Shown here: piece after piece, positions 6,045 through 37,435 of the stretch | How the letters are laid out: each line of letters opens with the position of its first letter | Position numbering within the stretch: the stretch's first letter is position 1 | Source: Armatimonadota bacterium | GTDB lineage: Bacteria > Armatimonadota > Fimbriimonadia > Fimbriimonadales > GBS-DC | Direction: 5' to 3' | NCBI GenBank assembly: GCA_023511915.1 | Contig: JAIMAN010000022.1 | Coordinates: forward strand, 1 to 37,435 | Length of the DNA: 37,435 nucleotides | Position numbers and translations under genes: made by a program | The notes under the pieces: generated by a model | What the model was told of the DNA's origin: nothing | Seen by the model: the letters and a program-made list of their open reading frames with translations, nothing else | Database searches by the model: none

Positions 6045-8411
6045 TTATGTGCCGCTCGGCAACGCGGGCGGGAATCGCGTCCCTTCGGGCTGGTTCCAAG
6101 TGTTGCCTTTGCCCGTCATGTCCCACAGCAGGTCTACGGGCGGGATACCGAACCGCTTGAGTCGCTCGTCGGGGTCTTTGCCGTTGTCGCGCAGAGTGTT
6201 GTTGTAGATGCGATTGCCGTCGGGGCTGGGGTCTACATCCAGCGGCGTCGGCGCAGGGAAAATCTGGCGCAGCCCAATTGTCATAATCCCAAAAGTGCCG
6301 TTGCCGACGATTTCGTTCTCGTACACTTCGGTGTTGTCCGCCGCCAGCAGCATGATGCCCGTGCCCTTCAGCACATTGCTCACGATGGCTTCGGGGTCAG
6401 CGAAGTTCGGCGTGTTGTTGTTGATGACGCGATTGCGCCGCACGATGCACCCGTCCTGCACTTTGGACGGGTTGAACGGCAGCAGGAAGACCAGAATACC
6501 GCCCGTATTGTTGTGGACATAGTTGTCTTCCACGATGGCGTTGACGCAGTTTTCGATTTCGATGCCCGTAACATTCTGGAAGGCTTCGTTGCGGCGCACG
6601 ACGATATTGCGTGACTGCCCGACATAGATGCCCGCGTCGCGCGTGCCCGACACCTTGCAGTCTTCCACCAGCACGCCGTCGCACTCGATGGGGTAGACGC
6701 CGTACAGCCCTGTGTTGTGCAGGATGAGGTTGCGGTAGACGACATTCCGCGCCTTATGCACCACGACGCCGTTGCCCTGATAGTTGCGGATTTCGAGGTT
6801 CATCACCTTGAAGTCGTTGCCCAGCCCAGAGATGGCGTCGGGCAGGAGGTTGCGCCCGTCCAGCACAGGTCGCTTGCCGTTGCGGATGACGCCCTCGATG
6901 GTCACGCCGTGATGGATGACCAGCACATTCTCGTGGTAGGTACCAGGGTAGATGCGCACGACGCCGTTGCGCCCCGCTTTGTCGACGGCTTCCTGGATGC
7001 TCTCGCCAGGGCGCACCTCCACGACGCGGGCGTGGGATGGTGAATCCCCCCTCACCCCCCTGCGCAAGGGGGGAGAGGGGGGATTCTGTTGTACGGCAAG
7101 AGTTTTGAGGCTGTGTGATTGTTTTCGTGGCGCAGGAGTGGTGGGCAGAGTGTTCTCCGCGCGGCGCTGCAGCTGTTGGATGCGGCGCAGTTCGGGGCTG
7201 TTGAGATTCAGGCGGGTGGGTTGACGGGGCACTTGTGGCTGCACGACAGGCAGCCCCGACGGCACGCGCTGGGGAATCTGGGGCAGCGCGGATTCGTCGG
7301 TCAGCGCAAGCAGGAACGCGATCAGGTCTGCCTTTTCCTGCGGGGTGAGGTTGAACTTGCGGATTTTGTCGTCCTGAAGAGGCACATCCAATCCCACCCC
7401 GCGCCCGCCGCCGCCCGCGTAGAAGTCCAGCACCTCCTCCAGCGTCTCGAACGCGCCGTTGTGCATGTAGGGCGCGGTGAGGGCGATATTGCGCAGGGTG
7501 GGGATTTTGAACGCGCCGTTGGGACCGCCGCCGCGCCCGCGTTCCGCCTCTGGCTTGGCGACATCGGCGGGTCCGTCTTTCGGGTCGGGCACGCCAATCA
7601 CTTTGAAGTTGCGGTCGGCAAACACGGGGATGCCGTGGCACTCGTTGCAGCGCGTCTTGGGCGAGAGGAACAGTTTCAGCCCGCGCTTCTCTTGGGGGCT
7701 CAGCGCGCTGCCGTCGCCCGCTGCGTAGCGGTCGAAGCGCGAGTTGAAACTGACCAGCGTGCGCTGGAACGCCGCAATCGCGTAGGTGATATTCTTAAAG
7801 GTAATTGCCTCGCCGTCCTTGCCGCCGAAGGCTTTATCGAAGAGGGCGCGGTACTCGGGGATGGCTTTCAGTTCGCGCACGAGCTCGGCGGGGTCGGCGT
7901 TCACCTCTTCGGGCGTGGTGATGACCATGCGCGCCTGCTCTTCGAGGTGCGCCGCGCGTCCGTCCCAGAACTGGCGGTGGTAGTAGACCGTGTTCCACAG
8001 GCTGGGCGCGCCCCGTGTGAGTTCGATTCCGCCTGTGCGCTCGCGCCCTGCGCCTTTGCCCCCGCGTCCGCGCGAACGCGGCAGCCCGTCCGAAAAGCCC
8101 AAGTGCGGATGGTGGCAGTGTGCGCACGAGAGCGTGTTGTCATCCGACAGAATGGGGTCGAAAAACAGCAGCTTGCCCAGTTCCACCTTTTCGGGAGTTG
8201 TGGGGTTGTCGGCGGGTTGCACGATTTCGGTCGGGAAGGCTTTCTGCAGTCCCGTGTCGGGGTTGTTGGGGTCGTAGGGCGGGGGATTGGGAACCAGCGC
8301 GCCGTTGTCGAGGCGCATGCCCACGAATCGCCCCTCCGAAATCGATGCGCTCACCAGCAGCAGCGGCAGCAACGCCGTCGTTAGTCCGAACATCCAGCGC
8401 GATTGAATCAT
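6045..8411 (-). CDS. Di-heme cytochrome c peroxidase (CcpA/MauG-type) fused to NosD-like beta-helix domain
   Basis: The 788-residue protein begins with an uncleaved anchor or signal peptide (about 7-23). Residues 60-372 form a di-heme peroxidase with heme motifs CAHCH (96-100) and CNECH (255-259), RGAPSLWNT (133-141), QFWDGRA (147-153) and APYMHNGAFETLEEVLDFY, where Met316 is a candidate distal ligand. A Pro/Gln-rich linker (373-460) follows, then a right-handed beta-helix (463-788) of NosD/pectate-lyase-like repeats such as GVTIEGV and GTRDAGIYVG. The family reduces peroxide or oxidises partner proteins in the periplasm. The beta-helix would bind or process a polymer or surface partner, which is inference. 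A GGAGGCG ribosome binding site precedes ATG 8411. A palindromic element lies in the linker. Confidence 0.9.
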   Translation of the reverse strand: MIQSRWMFGLTTALLPLLLVSASISEGRFVGMRLDNGALVPNPPPYDPNNPDTGLQKAFPTEIVQPADNPTTPEKVELGKLLFFDPILSDDNTLSCAHCHHPHLGFSDGLPRSRGRGGKGAGRERTGGIELTRGAPSLWNTVYYHRQFWDGRAAHLEEQARMVITTPEEVNADPAELVRELKAIPEYRALFDKAFGGKDGEAITFKNITYAIAAFQRTLVSFNSRFDRYAAGDGSALSPQEKRGLKLFLSPKTRCNECHGIPVFADRNFKVIGVPDPKDGPADVAKPEAERGRGGGPNGAFKIPTLRNIALTAPYMHNGAFETLEEVLDFYAGGGGRGVGLDVPLQDDKIRKFNLTPQEKADLIAFLLALTDESALPQIPQRVPSGLPVVQPQVPRQPTRLNLNSPELRRIQQLQRRAENTLPTTPAPRKQSHSLKTLAVQQNPPSPPLRRGVRGDSPSHARVVEVRPGESIQEAVDKAGRNGVVRIYPGTYHENVLVIHHGVTIEGVIRNGKRPVLDGRNLLPDAISGLGNDFKVMNLEIRNYQGNGVVVHKARNVVYRNLILHNTGLYGVYPIECDGVLVEDCKVSGTRDAGIYVGQSRNIVVRRNEAFQNVTGIEIENCVNAIVEDNYVHNNTGGILVFLLPFNPSKVQDGCIVRRNRVINNNTPNFADPEAIVSNVLKGTGIMLLAADNTEVYENEIVGNGTFGIMTIGLRQIFPAPTPLDVDPSPDGNRIYNNTLRDNGKDPDERLKRFGIPPVDLLWDMTGKGNTWNQPEGTRFPPALPSGT
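7042..7086. repeat. In-frame palindromic element A in peroxidase/beta-helix linker
   Basis: GAATCCCCCCTC (7042-7053) pairs perfectly with GAGGGGGGATTC (7075-7086). Inside it CCCCCC (7055-7060) pairs with GGGGGG (7068-7073) around TGCGCAA. The 45 bp are exactly 15 codons and encode NPPSPPLRRGVRGDSP at about residues 442-457. It adds low-complexity sequence without shifting the frame. Confidence 0.8.
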
Positions 8412-8509
8412 CGTTGACGCCTCCGCGCGTAATTTTCGACTGGGCGGTAGAAAATCCTGCCCATCGCACGCGGATCAGCGACTATTTGTTATGAGGGGCG
8501 AGTTGTACG

Positions 8510-11919: not shown

Positions 11920-12278
11920 CGTGCTTCCCCCGTATTCGGCAAGTGTCGGCTCAGTTGCTCGTAGAGTTGCTCTGCCAGACCGAAACGCCCCTGTCGGCTT
12001 AAATGGTCGGCAAATTGCACATCGAACATTTCGGTATAGTTGAGTGTTTTGCTCTGGGTGGGCACGGTGCGTTGCATCGCCCGCCAGAGTTGCAGCACAA
12101 ACAGCGATTCGAACTCCTTGCAGGCGCGCAGGAGGGCGGGATTAGCAGCACTGCGCGTAGTTTTGGAGTGCGGAGGCGGAGCTTCCGCTTGCTGAAGCCT
12201 GTCGGAGTGCGGAAGCGGGGCTTCCGCACTCCAAAAGGGTAGCGTGCTGGCGAACGACTGGATCCTTGTCTCCATCAC
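11916..12278 (-). CDS. flgJ: Rod-binding protein, FlgJ N-terminal domain type
   Basis: The 120-residue protein contains the rod-binding domain core LLRACKEFESLFVLQLWRAM (49-68), followed by KTLNYTEMFDVQFADHLSRQ. It lacks the C-terminal muramidase domain of proteobacterial FlgJ, as is common in other phyla. It helps assemble the rod in the periplasm. Residues 15-40 come from palindromic element B and contain a duplicated AEAPxPHS peptide. Without it the protein would be close to a bare rod-binding domain. It overlaps flgI and flgN by 4 bp each. Confidence 0.88.
   Translation of the reverse strand: MMETRIQSFASTLPFWSAEAPLPHSDRLQQAEAPPPHSKTTRSAANPALLRACKEFESLFVLQLWRAMQRTVPTQSKTLNYTEMFDVQFADHLSRQGRFGLAEQLYEQLSRHLPNTGEAR
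12161..12236. repeat. In-frame palindromic element B inside flgJ
   Basis: TTTTGGAGTGCGGA (12161-12174) pairs perfectly with TCCGCACTCCAAAA (12223-12236). The right half also forms a perfect 13-bp hairpin, GGAGTGCGGAAGC (12204-12216) with GCTTCCGCACTCC (12220-12232). Two near-copies of GGAGTGCGGRRGCGG are present. It encodes about residues 15-40 of FlgJ and leaves the frame open. Confidence 0.8.
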
Positions 12279-13543
12279 TGCACCTCGATTTCGGCATGCA
12301 GCGCGCCTGCCGCTTTGAGTGCCTGCAGAATCGCAATCAGGTCGCGCGGGCTGACTCCCAGCGCGTTGAGTGCCTTGACCAGCGATTCGACGGACGCGCC
12401 CTCGCGCAGGTAGACCATCCGCGCAGGCTCTTCGTTAGCGTCCACCTGCGTTTGGGGCACGACCTTCGTTTGTCCCTCGCTCAGCGGCGGCGGCTGCGAC
12501 ACTTCGAAGGTGGTTTGCACGCGTACGGTGATGCCCCCGTGCGCAATCGCGACGGGCGCGACGCGCACATCGCCGTTGACGACCACAGTGCCTGTGCGTT
12601 CGTTGACCACCACGCGCGCCGCAATATCGGGCAGCACGCTCAGTGTCTCCAGTTGCGCAATCAGCATCACGGGGTCGGTCGCATATTGGGCGTCCAGTGC
12701 AATCCGCACGGTGGAGGGGTCTACGGCGCGCGCGGTTAGGTTCGGGAACGCGCTGCGGATACTGCTGACCACGCGCGCGGCGGTGGTGAAGTCGGGCTTG
12801 TGGAGTTGGATGGTGAGGCTGTTGTCGCCCTGCAGGAAGTTGGCGGGCACTTCGCGTTCAATTAGTGCGCCGTTCGGGATGCGCCCAACGGTGGTGTGGT
12901 TGCGTTGCACGCGCGCGCCGCCCCCGCCGAAGTTGAACCCGCCGATGGACAGCGGTCCCTGCGCCACGGCGTAGACCTGCCCGTCCGCGCCGCGCAGGGG
13001 CGTCTGCAGCAGCGTGCCTCCCTGCAGCGAGCGCGCGTCGCCGATGCTGGAGACCACCACATCGATGGTGTTGCCCGCCCGCGCAAACGGAGGCAACTCG
13101 GCGGTCACCATCACCGCCGCGACATTTTTGACCTTCAGCGCGTTCGGCGGGACAGTAATCCCAAAGCGTTCCAGCATATTCGCGACCGACTGCACGGTAA
13201 ACAGCGCGCCGTTGCTGTCGCCTGTGCCTTCCAACCCGACCACGATGCCGTAGCCCACCAGCTGGTTAGTGCGCACGCCGCGGATTTGCGCGATGTCCTT
13301 CAGGCGCACGGTCGGCGCAGCGGGCTGCTGCGCGGGCAGTAAGGCAGGGAACACCAGCGCAAGCCCTACCGCCAGACTAAAGTTCACTAACCTGTGCGAG
13401 GTTGAAGACCCCCTCCTTGAGGTTCCCCCTGCAAGCAGGGGGAACCGAGTCTGAGCGGTTCCCCTCGCGAAGCGGGGGCAACCTGCAGGAGGAGGGGGGC
13501 AACTCATGAGCTCTGAATACGCCATCGGAACAGTGTCTCGCAT
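12275..13543 (-). CDS. flgI: Flagellar P-ring protein FlgI
   Basis: FlgI builds the P ring around the rod in the peptidoglycan layer. The core reads VRLKDIAQIRGVRTNQLVGY, GLEGTGDSNG and, near the end, VESLVKALNALGVSPRDLIAI, all diagnostic. The ORF is 422 residues, longer than the usual 360-380, because residues 15-45 derive from palindromic element C. The hydrophobic signal segment (LVNFSLAVGLALVFPALLPA) only begins at about residue 52. ATG 13543 has GGGGAGA just upstream and follows flgH by 12 bp. GTG 13387, directly before the signal segment, is a possible alternative start that would exclude the element. Confidence 0.93.
   Translation of the reverse strand: MRDTVPMAYSELMSCPPPPAGCPRFARGTAQTRFPLLAGGTSRRGSSTSHRLVNFSLAVGLALVFPALLPAQQPAAPTVRLKDIAQIRGVRTNQLVGYGIVVGLEGTGDSNGALFTVQSVANMLERFGITVPPNALKVKNVAAVMVTAELPPFARAGNTIDVVVSSIGDARSLQGGTLLQTPLRGADGQVYAVAQGPLSIGGFNFGGGGARVQRNHTTVGRIPNGALIEREVPANFLQGDNSLTIQLHKPDFTTAARVVSSIRSAFPNLTARAVDPSTVRIALDAQYATDPVMLIAQLETLSVLPDIAARVVVNERTGTVVVNGDVRVAPVAIAHGGITVRVQTTFEVSQPPPLSEGQTKVVPQTQVDANEEPARMVYLREGASVESLVKALNALGVSPRDLIAILQALKAAGALHAEIEVQ
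13409..13499. repeat. Cloverleaf-like palindromic element C at the 5' end of flgI
   Basis: An outer stem (CCCCCTCC at 13409-13416 with GGAGGGGG at 13491-13498) encloses two hairpins. GGTTCCCCCTGC (13421-13432) pairs perfectly with GCAGGGGGAACC (13435-13446). GGTTCCCCTCGC (13457-13468) pairs with GCGGGGGCAACC (13472-13483) with one mismatch. The flgI frame stays open through the element, which falls between an N-terminal MRDTVPMAYSELMS and the signal peptide. Confidence 0.8.
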
Positions 13544-34558: not shown

Positions 34559-35196
34559 GAGCATTGCTGACGGCTTTAACGGTTGCATTAGGACAAGTGG
34601 AACCGCGTGGCGAGAATCCCGCGATTCGCGTCAACACGCTACTGGGTCCCACGGGATTGATTACCGTGCCGACTTCCACGACCACGCGCGTGGAGCGGTT
34701 CCAACTCGGAACGGCGTTCGGCAAGGACATCCGCACCGTCTCGCTGAACTGGGGCATTTTTGACAGCGTCGAAATCGGCGGCGCGGTCGTCGATCGCAAC
34801 AATCGGGATAACAAGGTCATCGCCACGGCGAAGGTGACCATCATCCCGCAGAACTTTGACTGGCTGGAGCTGGGCTTCGGCGCGATTGACCCCTTCGACG
34901 CCATCGACAACACCATCTACGGCGTGGCGAGCGTGAATGTGCGCGTGCCTACCCAAGCGCCTGAACCCGTCGTCGGCTTGCGCTTGCATATCGGCTATGG
35001 CACAGGCATCTATCGCGACAAGATCATCGGCGGCGGCGAGGTGTTTCTGGGCAATCGGTTCTCGGTTATCGCGGAGTATAACGGCGTAGACACCAACGCC
35101 GCGCTGCGCTATGTGCATGACGACGCGCTGCGCTTGCAGCTGGGCACGCAAGCGAAGGTCATCTACTTCAGCGCGACCTACGGGCTGAGTTTCTGA
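34537..35196 (+). CDS. Predicted outer-membrane beta-barrel protein, YjbH-like
   Basis: The 219-residue protein has a signal peptide (TLITLGALLTALTVALGQ), then GPTGLITVPTSTTTRVERFQ. Alternating beta strands follow (VSLNWGIFDSVEIGGAVVDR, DWLELGFGAIDPFD, VGLRLHIGYGTGIYRDKIIG), ending in YFSATYGLSF with the C-terminal Phe favoured by outer-membrane barrel assembly. The GLITVPT start resembles YjbH-type exopolysaccharide-associated proteins. It is much shorter than YjbH and could be a simple barrel. GGAGGT precedes ATG. Function unknown. Confidence 0.7.
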   Translation: MRTLITLGALLTALTVALGQVEPRGENPAIRVNTLLGPTGLITVPTSTTTRVERFQLGTAFGKDIRTVSLNWGIFDSVEIGGAVVDRNNRDNKVIATAKVTIIPQNFDWLELGFGAIDPFDAIDNTIYGVASVNVRVPTQAPEPVVGLRLHIGYGTGIYRDKIIGGGEVFLGNRFSVIAEYNGVDTNAALRYVHDDALRLQLGTQAKVIYFSATYGLSF

Positions 35197-35230
35197 CCTA
35201 ACTCGCAGGAACTTCGAACGCCGAGTCGAA

Positions 35231-35270
35231 AAACCTCCCTGTGCGAAGTGGCATCGCAACAGGGAGGTTT
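35231..35270 (+). promoter_or_regulatory. Strong leader hairpin that buries the Shine-Dalgarno of the acylase gene
   Basis: AAACCTCCCTG (35231-35241) pairs with CAGGGAGGTTT (35260-35270). An inner TGCGA/TCGCA stem (35242-35246/35254-35258) extends it to 16 bp with one bulged A and a 7-nt loop. AGGGAGGT, the only Shine-Dalgarno before ATG 35277, lies wholly in the 3' arm. It may control translation, or be a terminator of the preceding gene; no T tract follows on the plus strand. Confidence 0.6.
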
Positions 35271-35276
35271 GCTCAT

Positions 35277-37435
35277 ATGATGATTCGGACAGGACTTGCG
35301 TTCGTTTTAGGCGTGTGCGTCGGCTGGGCGGTCTGGAGCCAGCCAGTTGTTGAACTGAGTGTGCGCGGGGACACCGTGCGCATTACCCGCGATAGCTATG
35401 GCGTGCCCACCGTGCAAGCCAGCACCCAGTACGGACTGCTGTACGGCAACGGCTACGCGATTGCGCAGGACAGGCTGTGGCAGATGGAGCTGTATCGTCG
35501 CCAAGCGCGCGGCGAGATGGCAGAGGTGATGGGCAGCCGCGCCCTTGAGCAAGACCGCGCCGCCCGCACCGAAGGCTACACCGACGCCGAACTGCAAGCG
35601 CAGATCAGCCGCCTGCCGCGCGAATTGCAAGACGCGCTGGACGCCTTCGCCGCAGGCATCAACGCCTGGATGCAAGAGGCGCAGCGTACAGGCAAGCTGC
35701 CGAAGCAGTACGCCGAAAACGGCATCGAGCCGCGCCCGTGGCGGCAGACCGACACGGTCGCCATCGCCGTGATGATGCTGCGACGCTTCGGCGGGGTGAT
35801 GTCCGCAGGCGACTTGCGCAACTACGCCTTCTACCAACTCCTCAAGGCGCGCAACAAAGACCTCGCGGCGACTTGGGCGAACGACCTGCTGTGGATCCAA
35901 GACCCGACCTCGCCGACGACCGTGCCCCCAGAAGACGACTCGCGCAAGGCGCACCGCCGCGACCCACGCCAGACGCTGGAGCAGATGCGCAAGCATCTGG
36001 AGCTGCTGCCCGACATCGGGCTGAATGTGATTCTGCCCGCGTTGCGCCTCGCTTCAGGGCAGGCGCAAATCGAGTTCGCGCAGGAACACGGGCTGTATAC
36101 TCAATTCGGCAGCTACGCGATACTCATCGGACCCGAGAGGTCTGCAACTGGGCTGCCGATTCTGGTCGGCGCGCCGCAGATGGGCTTCAGCCTGCCGCAC
36201 ATCGCCGCCGAGATTCACCTCAGCGGTGCGGGCATCAACGCACGCGGGATGACCTTTCCCGGCGCGCCTGGCGTGCTGATTGGAACCAACGAGAACCTCG
36301 CGTGGACTTTCACTTCGGGCGTCGCCGACTTCGTGGACGCCTTCATCCTGAAACTGGATCCGCAGAACCCCGAACGCTACTGGTACAAGGGCACTTGGCG
36401 CACCCTTGAGAAGCGCACGGAGACCATCCGCGTCAAGGGCGGCGCGCCTGTGGAGCTGACCGTCTACCGCAGCGTGTACGGTCCCGTCGTCGCTGTAGAC
36501 GCCCGCAACGCCGTCGCCGTGAGCCTCAAGCTGAGCTACTGGAACAACGAGCTGGAGGCGTTTCAGGCGTACTACGGCTTCCTGACCGCGCGCACGGTGG
36601 CGGAGTTTGAACGCGCGGCGTCGCACATTCCCGCCTCGTTCAACGCCTTCTGTGCCACGCGCACGGGCGACATCGCCTACTTCTACTGCGGGCGCGCACC
36701 CATCCGCGCCGACGGGGTAGACCCGCGCTTGCCTGCGCTGGGCACGGGCGAGTACGATTGGAAGGGGATTATGCCGTTCTCCGAGATGCCGCGCGTGGTG
36801 AACCCCAAGCAAGGCTACATCGCGAACTGGAACAACAAGCCCGCCGTGTGGTGGGAGAACGCCGACACGCCCGTGTGGGGCATGATTTTCCGCGTCTACC
36901 GCCTGAACGAGCTGATTCGCAGCAAGCCGCGCCTGACGGTGGACGATGTGAAGGCGTACGTTCGCGATATTGCCGAGTACGACGAGGACGCAGGCAGGCT
37001 GCTGCCGATGATGCTGCGCATCGTCAAGCGCAACGAGCGCAACTTCAGCGACGAGCTGCGGGCGGCGGTGCGCCTGCTGGAATCGTGGGACTGCCACGAG
37101 CGCGAGGGCAGTGCGGCGAAAGCCCTCTGGGACGCTTGGCTGGACGCTGTGCGCACGCGCGTGTTCGCGGACGACCTCGGCAACTTCTTCAGCCCTGACC
37201 TGTTCCGCCTCGCGATCCAGCCCAGCTACATCGGCTACGCGCTGTTGGGCAGGCAAGCCGCTGTGCCGCGCCAGCACGACTACTTCAACGGCAAAAAGCC
37301 CGAAGAGCTGCTGACCATCGCGCTGGCGGAGGCCATCACGCAAATGAAGCGTCGGCATGGCGAGTCGATGAACTTGTGGCGCTACAGTGCGCCGCGCATG
37401 GGCTGGGGCGACACGATGCCCGGTGTGCCGTACAC
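35277..37435 (+). CDS. Penicillin acylase-family Ntn-hydrolase, cut by window edge
   Basis: The frame runs open from ATG 35277 (or ATG 35280) to the right edge, 719 codons without a stop. A signal peptide (GLAFVLGVCVGWAVWSQ) is followed by an alpha-chain region typical of the family: VRITRDSYGVPTVQASTQYG, GNGYAIAQDRLWQMELYRRQ and RGEMAEVMG. A linker then leads to the expected autocatalytic site QFGSYAILIG, where the Ser after Gly would become the N-terminal nucleophile. Further landmarks are GTNENLAWTFTSGVADFVDA and VNPKQGYIANWNNKP. Such periplasmic enzymes cleave amide bonds in beta-lactams, acyl-homoserine lactones or other N-acyl compounds; the substrate here is unknown. The usual Asn after the Ser is Tyr. 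Confidence 0.92.
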   Translation, partial: MMIRTGLAFVLGVCVGWAVWSQPVVELSVRGDTVRITRDSYGVPTVQASTQYGLLYGNGYAIAQDRLWQMELYRRQARGEMAEVMGSRALEQDRAARTEGYTDAELQAQISRLPRELQDALDAFAAGINAWMQEAQRTGKLPKQYAENGIEPRPWRQTDTVAIAVMMLRRFGGVMSAGDLRNYAFYQLLKARNKDLAATWANDLLWIQDPTSPTTVPPEDDSRKAHRRDPRQTLEQMRKHLELLPDIGLNVILPALRLASGQAQIEFAQEHGLYTQFGSYAILIGPERSATGLPILVGAPQMGFSLPHIAAEIHLSGAGINARGMTFPGAPGVLIGTNENLAWTFTSGVADFVDAFILKLDPQNPERYWYKGTWRTLEKRTETIRVKGGAPVELTVYRSVYGPVVAVDARNAVAVSLKLSYWNNELEAFQAYYGFLTARTVAEFERAASHIPASFNAFCATRTGDIAYFYCGRAPIRADGVDPRLPALGTGEYDWKGIMPFSEMPRVVNPKQGYIANWNNKPAVWWENADTPVWGMIFRVYRLNELIRSKPRLTVDDVKAYVRDIAEYDEDAGRLLPMMLRIVKRNERNFSDELRAAVRLLESWDCHEREGSAAKALWDAWLDAVRTRVFADDLGNFFSPDLFRLAIQPSYIGYALLGRQAAVPRQHDYFNGKKPEELLTIALAEAITQMKRRHGESMNLWRYSAPRMGWGDTMPGVPY

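Follow-up and report, generated by a model that had tools for sequence, protein, structure and literature searches.

The Shine-Dalgarno sequence of a penicillin-amidase-family acylase gene in a member of the Armatimonadota lies entirely within one arm of a 16-bp hairpin, and both this hairpin and a promoter-like two-box element just upstream of it are conserved in the acylase leaders of related genomes. The window is the whole stretch of DNA analysed, 37,435 nucleotides in length. We propose, regarding the proposal as about evenly balanced between right and wrong, that the hairpin serves as a read-through lock of the phage T4 gene e type. It most likely acts on read-through transcripts and not by sensing a signal within the acylase's own mRNA. 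The acylase would be transcribed from its own promoter, GCAGGA-N14-GTCGAA, and the transcript would begin about 7–14 nt after GTCGAA, leaving the 5' arm mostly or wholly as untranscribed promoter DNA. The mRNA, lacking the 5' arm, would then have a free Shine-Dalgarno sequence and be translatable; transcripts entering from the preceding gene would carry both arms, hide the Shine-Dalgarno sequence and give no acylase. The features concerned are listed in Table 1.

The acylase is a member of the Pfam family Penicil_amidase (PF01804, E 1.3e-145) and would be secreted, to judge from a signal-like N-terminal stretch read by eye. Residues 697–719 of the acylase are matched perfectly, over 23 residues, on another contig (G000:C93:57331-57399), probably by the continuation of the gene across a contig break. 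The acylase was found in 53 of the 61 genomes searched and in 11 of 12 same-genus relatives, and a Pfam search of the product of the upstream gene gave no match. The lineage is heat-loving and belongs to the Armatimonadota; the window's genus falls within the Fimbriimonadales, and the closest match that bears a name is the genome of Fimbriimonadales bacterium KatS3mg018.

Table 1. Features at the acylase leader and in the flanking genes.
Feature	Position	Strand	Remarks
Upstream gene, 219 aa	34537-35196	+	barrel-like by eye; co-directional with acylase
Two-box promoter-like element	35205-35230	+	GCAGGA 35205-35210, 14-nt spacer, GTCGAA 35225-35230
5' arm of hairpin	35231-35242	+	between GTCGAA and predicted transcription start
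Predicted transcription start zone	35237-35245	+	inferred from start-codon distances at other element copies
Loop-side block GTGCGAAGTnGCAT	35241-35254	+	conserved; opens with GTG
3' arm of hairpin	35259-35270	+	
Shine-Dalgarno sequence AGGGAGGT	35261-35268	+	8 nt 5' of ATG 35277
Penicillin-amidase-family acylase	35277-37435, runs off window	+	N-terminal signal-like stretch by eye

The hairpin and its conservation

The two arms (AAACCTCCCTGT and ACAGGGAGGTTT) form 12 contiguous pairs with 100% complementarity in an inverted-repeat scan, and the minimum-energy fold adds four inner pairs beside a one-base bulge, which brings the total to 16. The folding energy of the region 35200-35310 is -42.1 kcal/mol; 200 dinucleotide shuffles gave -28.9 +/- 3.6 kcal/mol (z -3.67), and none of them folded as well. 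The pattern ACCTCCC-N5..34-GGGAGGT occurs once in the window (0.00 expected), and the 2.73 Mb genome has AACCTCCCT-N5..34-AGGGAGGTT at a single place, which reads on both strands. A preliminary description of this DNA had reported a 16-bp hairpin with a fully paired Shine-Dalgarno sequence before the acylase gene, and the arms, the fold and the shuffles bear this out. It had also taken the ideally spaced Shine-Dalgarno sequence to be the functional site, and the GGAGG core is indeed kept in 12 of 12 aligned leaders. Other strong G/C-rich inverted repeats in the window lie at 7042-7086, 12161-12238 and 13421-13446. No Rfam family matched the hairpin when covariance models were run on window positions 34900-35600 with E up to 5. 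At the gathering threshold, 14 loci gave no leader or riboswitch match at the hairpin, the sole matches at that level being one SRP RNA and one tRNA, both elsewhere.

A covariance model of the hairpin was searched in 41 genomes. It located the structure at the acylase leader in 10 of the 13 genomes of the genus (the window's own and nine of 12 relatives) and also at that of G013, from the sister genus, making 11 leaders in all; this search did not find it in G001, G012 or G005, the last being without an acylase match. The hairpin has one place, the acylase leader, in each of the ten hairpin-bearing genus genomes (with a match on either strand), and its confinement to this place before a host gene led us to reject a dispersed repeat or mobile element. 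Further matches to the model in G022, G015, G016 and G013 were inspected: two in G022 and one in G015 resemble ordinary gene-end stems, the G016 match is short and in likely coding DNA, and the one further match in G013, a weak one (E 0.009), is an apparently intergenic stem.

Conservation of the pairing in relatives, which the preliminary description had proposed as a check, was found: across the distinct rows of the 11 leaders, 97.9% of the outer stem is paired. Two stem pairs are changed on both sides, at alignment columns 18/41 and 12/47. Only G000, G010, G008 and G011 have the C-G form at columns 18/41, and since these four group together on the acylase tree the change counts as one event; the double change at columns 12/47 comes from one genome. 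One compensatory change that holds the pairing is clear and a second is possible, so that covariation in the stem is genuine, though sparse. On the loop side, the block GTGCGAAGTnGCA hardly varies across the genus, including leaders in which the stem has decayed.

The two-box element and the start of transcription

The two-box element just 5' of the hairpin was not included in the preliminary description. GCAGGA-N13..15-GTCGAA occurs 21 times in the window's own genome, mostly before genes, and 21 times in G010, and the reversed pattern is found in neither; across nine family genomes the counts are 122 and 3, respectively. Of five genomes that belong to the order but not to the family, three show little or no excess over the reversed pattern (6 vs 5, 5 vs 6 and 6 vs 3) and two do show one (2 vs 0 and 9 vs 0). 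When the spacer is left free from 0 to 30 nt there are 44 matches in the own genome and 47 in G010; counted from listed coordinates, those at N14 and N15 number 14 and 6 in the former and 14 and 5 in the latter, and a spacer of 14–15 nt is special. A second copy in the window lies at 8435-8460 on the - strand. The genes preceded by the element are of varied function and include a dnaE-like gene, recognized by eye. At seven pairs of own and G010 sites before matching genes, ungapped identity is 0.30–0.41 upstream of GCAGGA and 0.57–0.63 downstream of GTCGAA. In addition, two elements in G010 (L188) stand back to back with their GCAGGA boxes 7 nt apart, so that hardly any space remains for each to have another promoter further upstream.

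The distances to start codons suggest where transcription may begin. They were counted between the last base of GTCGAA and the first open-frame ATG, in 97 stretches from eight genomes holding 98 element sites. Such an ATG lies within 60 nt at 76 of the 98 sites, compared with 15% of control positions. Five distances fall at 0–8 nt, 25 at 9–14, two at 15–20, 35 at 21–30, four at 31–45 and five at 46–59 nt, with none at the other 22 sites; control positions give 2–4% in each bin. Shine-Dalgarno cores precede 2 of the 25 ATGs at 9–14 nt and 33 of 37 at 21–31 nt. A fixed start about 7–14 nt after GTCGAA would account for both classes and for the gap between them, the nearer genes being leaderless, the farther ones led by a Shine-Dalgarno sequence, and none having a leader too short to hold one. 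These distances suggest promoter activity of the element, with transcripts beginning about 7–14 nt past GTCGAA, and it is likely a family-level promoter class with many leaderless genes. To our knowledge, 14–15 nt between hexamers fits no sigma-factor class, so that the promoter reading is drawn from position alone. Our literature search found no description of this promoter motif in Armatimonadetes or of GTCGAA as a promoter element.

A TATAAT-type promoter upstream of the element is unsupported as a general rule: 5-of-6 matches are present at 6 of 36 sites, against a mean of 3.1 in shuffles and 10 on the antisense strand. One TATAAT-like site is conserved between the own genome and G010 (L157/L182), and the element there would fall in a 5' UTR.

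Applied to the acylase, the same distance rule predicts a start inside or just past the 5' arm. In the fold model, transcripts from 35231 or earlier, which have both arms, leave the Shine-Dalgarno sequence 0–1% unpaired at 37–70 C, so that its sequestration in a long transcript, as in a lock of the T4 gene e type, is found here. Transcripts modelled from 35239-35245 leave it about 66% unpaired at 60 C, and intermediate starts at 35235 and 35237 give 25% and 52%. The opening of the site varies with the start position, and the exact start is therefore decisive; one at 35235 or earlier would, in the model, leave the gene's own mRNA largely locked. The preliminary description had held that its reading of the leader would fail if transcription began downstream of about 35241, and the predicted zone lies close to that position.

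The genes that carry the element do not support Shine-Dalgarno locking as a general property, mean pairing of the Shine-Dalgarno sequence being 0.43 in 34 element leaders against a background of 0.37. At L162 and L170 (the dnaE-like gene of the own genome and G010), L263 (G008) and L232 (G014), the Shine-Dalgarno sequence pairs with bases just past GTCGAA, and only 0–2 of 100 random replacements were paired as strongly. These four may, on the modelled pairing, be further locks of the same kind.

Neighbouring genes and competing explanations

The co-directional gene that ends upstream of the acylase is the presumed source of read-through. Its stop lies 8 nt 5' of the two-box element, and the same neighbour is present in nine of nine hairpin-bearing genus genomes with enough upstream sequence (own, G002, G003, G004, G006, G007, G009, G010 and G011; G008 was left out, as its contig ends). 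In six of these genomes its stop is 74–80 nt from the acylase ATG, a distance with almost no room for another terminator. In G001 a divergent acetyltransferase-like gene (by eye) takes the neighbour's place, and the leader keeps both boxes and the Shine-Dalgarno sequence with the pairing of the 5' arm lost. G012 lacks the upstream neighbour and its leader is replaced. G001 and G012 fall into one clade of the acylase tree (support 94/89), which reduces the association of hairpin and neighbour to one evolutionary contrast. Outside the genus the association is mixed. No lock is present in G017, where the neighbour is divergent. It is also absent from G014 and G016 despite their co-directional neighbours, which counts against the proposal, as does the retention of the hairpin in G013 after a co-directional pilin-like gene that bears its own terminator-like stem and T run. 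Nor does a lock account for the invariance of the loop block.

The main rival is a regulated cis-acting switch in the gene's own leader, in which transcription would start upstream of 35231, the stem would normally shut the Shine-Dalgarno sequence, and the loop GUGCGAAGUnGCA would be read by a protein, small RNA or ligand that opens or stabilizes the stem. The near invariance of the loop block agrees with such a switch, as does the maintenance of the stem through compensatory change, and a TATAAA-like stretch (GTATAAACT) immediately 5' of GCAGGA in the G010 acylase leader would place both arms in the mRNA. We nevertheless consider it unlikely: the element and the start-codon distances favour initiation within the 5' arm, the Rfam searches returned nothing comparable, and no other gene carries the hairpin. 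The switch-like layout of the preliminary description stands insofar as the structure that hides the Shine-Dalgarno sequence is conserved, with some evidence of selection for pairing.

The stem could instead function chiefly as an intrinsic terminator for the upstream gene, its 3' arm housing the Shine-Dalgarno sequence to save space and the translational lock being incidental. It is the only evident candidate for a terminator in the short interval between the upstream stop and the ATG in the six genomes mentioned above. Furthermore, five of the 11 hairpin-bearing leaders (G002, G004, G006, G007 and G009) have five or six U residues (TTTTT or TTTTTT) directly after the stem and an A-run 5' of it. 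The U tract is, however, missing from the own leader and from those of G010, G008, G011, G003 and G013, all six of which keep the Shine-Dalgarno pairing, and a terminator scan of the window did not flag the hairpin; this explanation therefore seems to us improbable. The lack of a U tract, cited in the preliminary description against a plain terminator, thus holds for the window's leader and fails for the five congeners. Under the read-through lock, the same stem would probably also terminate upstream transcripts in those relatives.

A leaderless start at the GTG at 35241, which would form the 5' end of the mRNA and make the hairpin region coding sequence or a leader peptide, is more doubtful still. 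This GTG, 10 nt after GTCGAA in the window, lies 9–11 nt past the second box in 12 of 12 aligned leaders, where other genes have leaderless ATGs, and is in frame with the acylase in the own genome and seven congeners. Single-nucleotide changes shift its frame or close it with a stop in G006, G008, G011 and G013, in which the Shine-Dalgarno sequence and ATG are kept, and a conserved N-terminal extension was rejected because the frame is broken in these four relatives. RNA thermometers include ROSE and fourU, and the acylase leader resembles them in that its ideally spaced Shine-Dalgarno sequence is wholly occluded by base pairing; this part of the preliminary reading can be dismissed as scarcely credible, since the stem is far too stable in the model, staying unmelted from 37 to 80 C, and matches no Rfam thermometer. 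The modelled site at 80 C is no more than 1% open in the leader of the window, and no more than 2.2% in five further intact leaders.

Relation to known systems

The ends of IS10/IS50-type insertion sequences hide the transposase Shine-Dalgarno sequence in read-through transcripts. The acylase hairpin would similarly insulate a gene from outside transcription; it differs in not being mobile. With intrinsic terminators it shares a GC-rich stem and, in the five congeners, the U tract, from which the window's genome and the five other leaders without one depart. The closest parallel is T4 gene e (lysozyme), one of several T4 genes, with soc, 49 and I-TevI, for which PMC3014915 describes leader hairpins sequestering the Shine-Dalgarno sequence. 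In the account of gene e given there, an inhibitory stem forms in long transcripts, whereas those initiated at promoters immediately upstream are missing the 5' part of the stem and are translated efficiently. The acylase leader is like gene e, as so described, in having the Shine-Dalgarno sequence in a stem with a putative promoter immediately upstream, whose transcripts would lack the 5' portion while longer ones would be locked. It is unlike gene e, on the same account, in lying on a bacterial chromosome, in having a predicted start site and no known promoter class or timing programme, and in the U tract added in some relatives. A literature search on read-through Shine-Dalgarno sequestration and dual terminators returned no paper.

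We tentatively suggest that the promoter class leaves 7–14 untranscribed bases after GTCGAA, which have here been reused for a hairpin arm. The same DNA would then serve as promoter, terminator and translational lock, and only mRNA born there would be translatable. If this is true, it points to a promoter class in a little-studied phylum, a class of which our literature search found no description, and an ordinary chromosomal gene of a bacterium would carry a read-through lock best known from phage T4, the presence of which follows the neighbouring gene.
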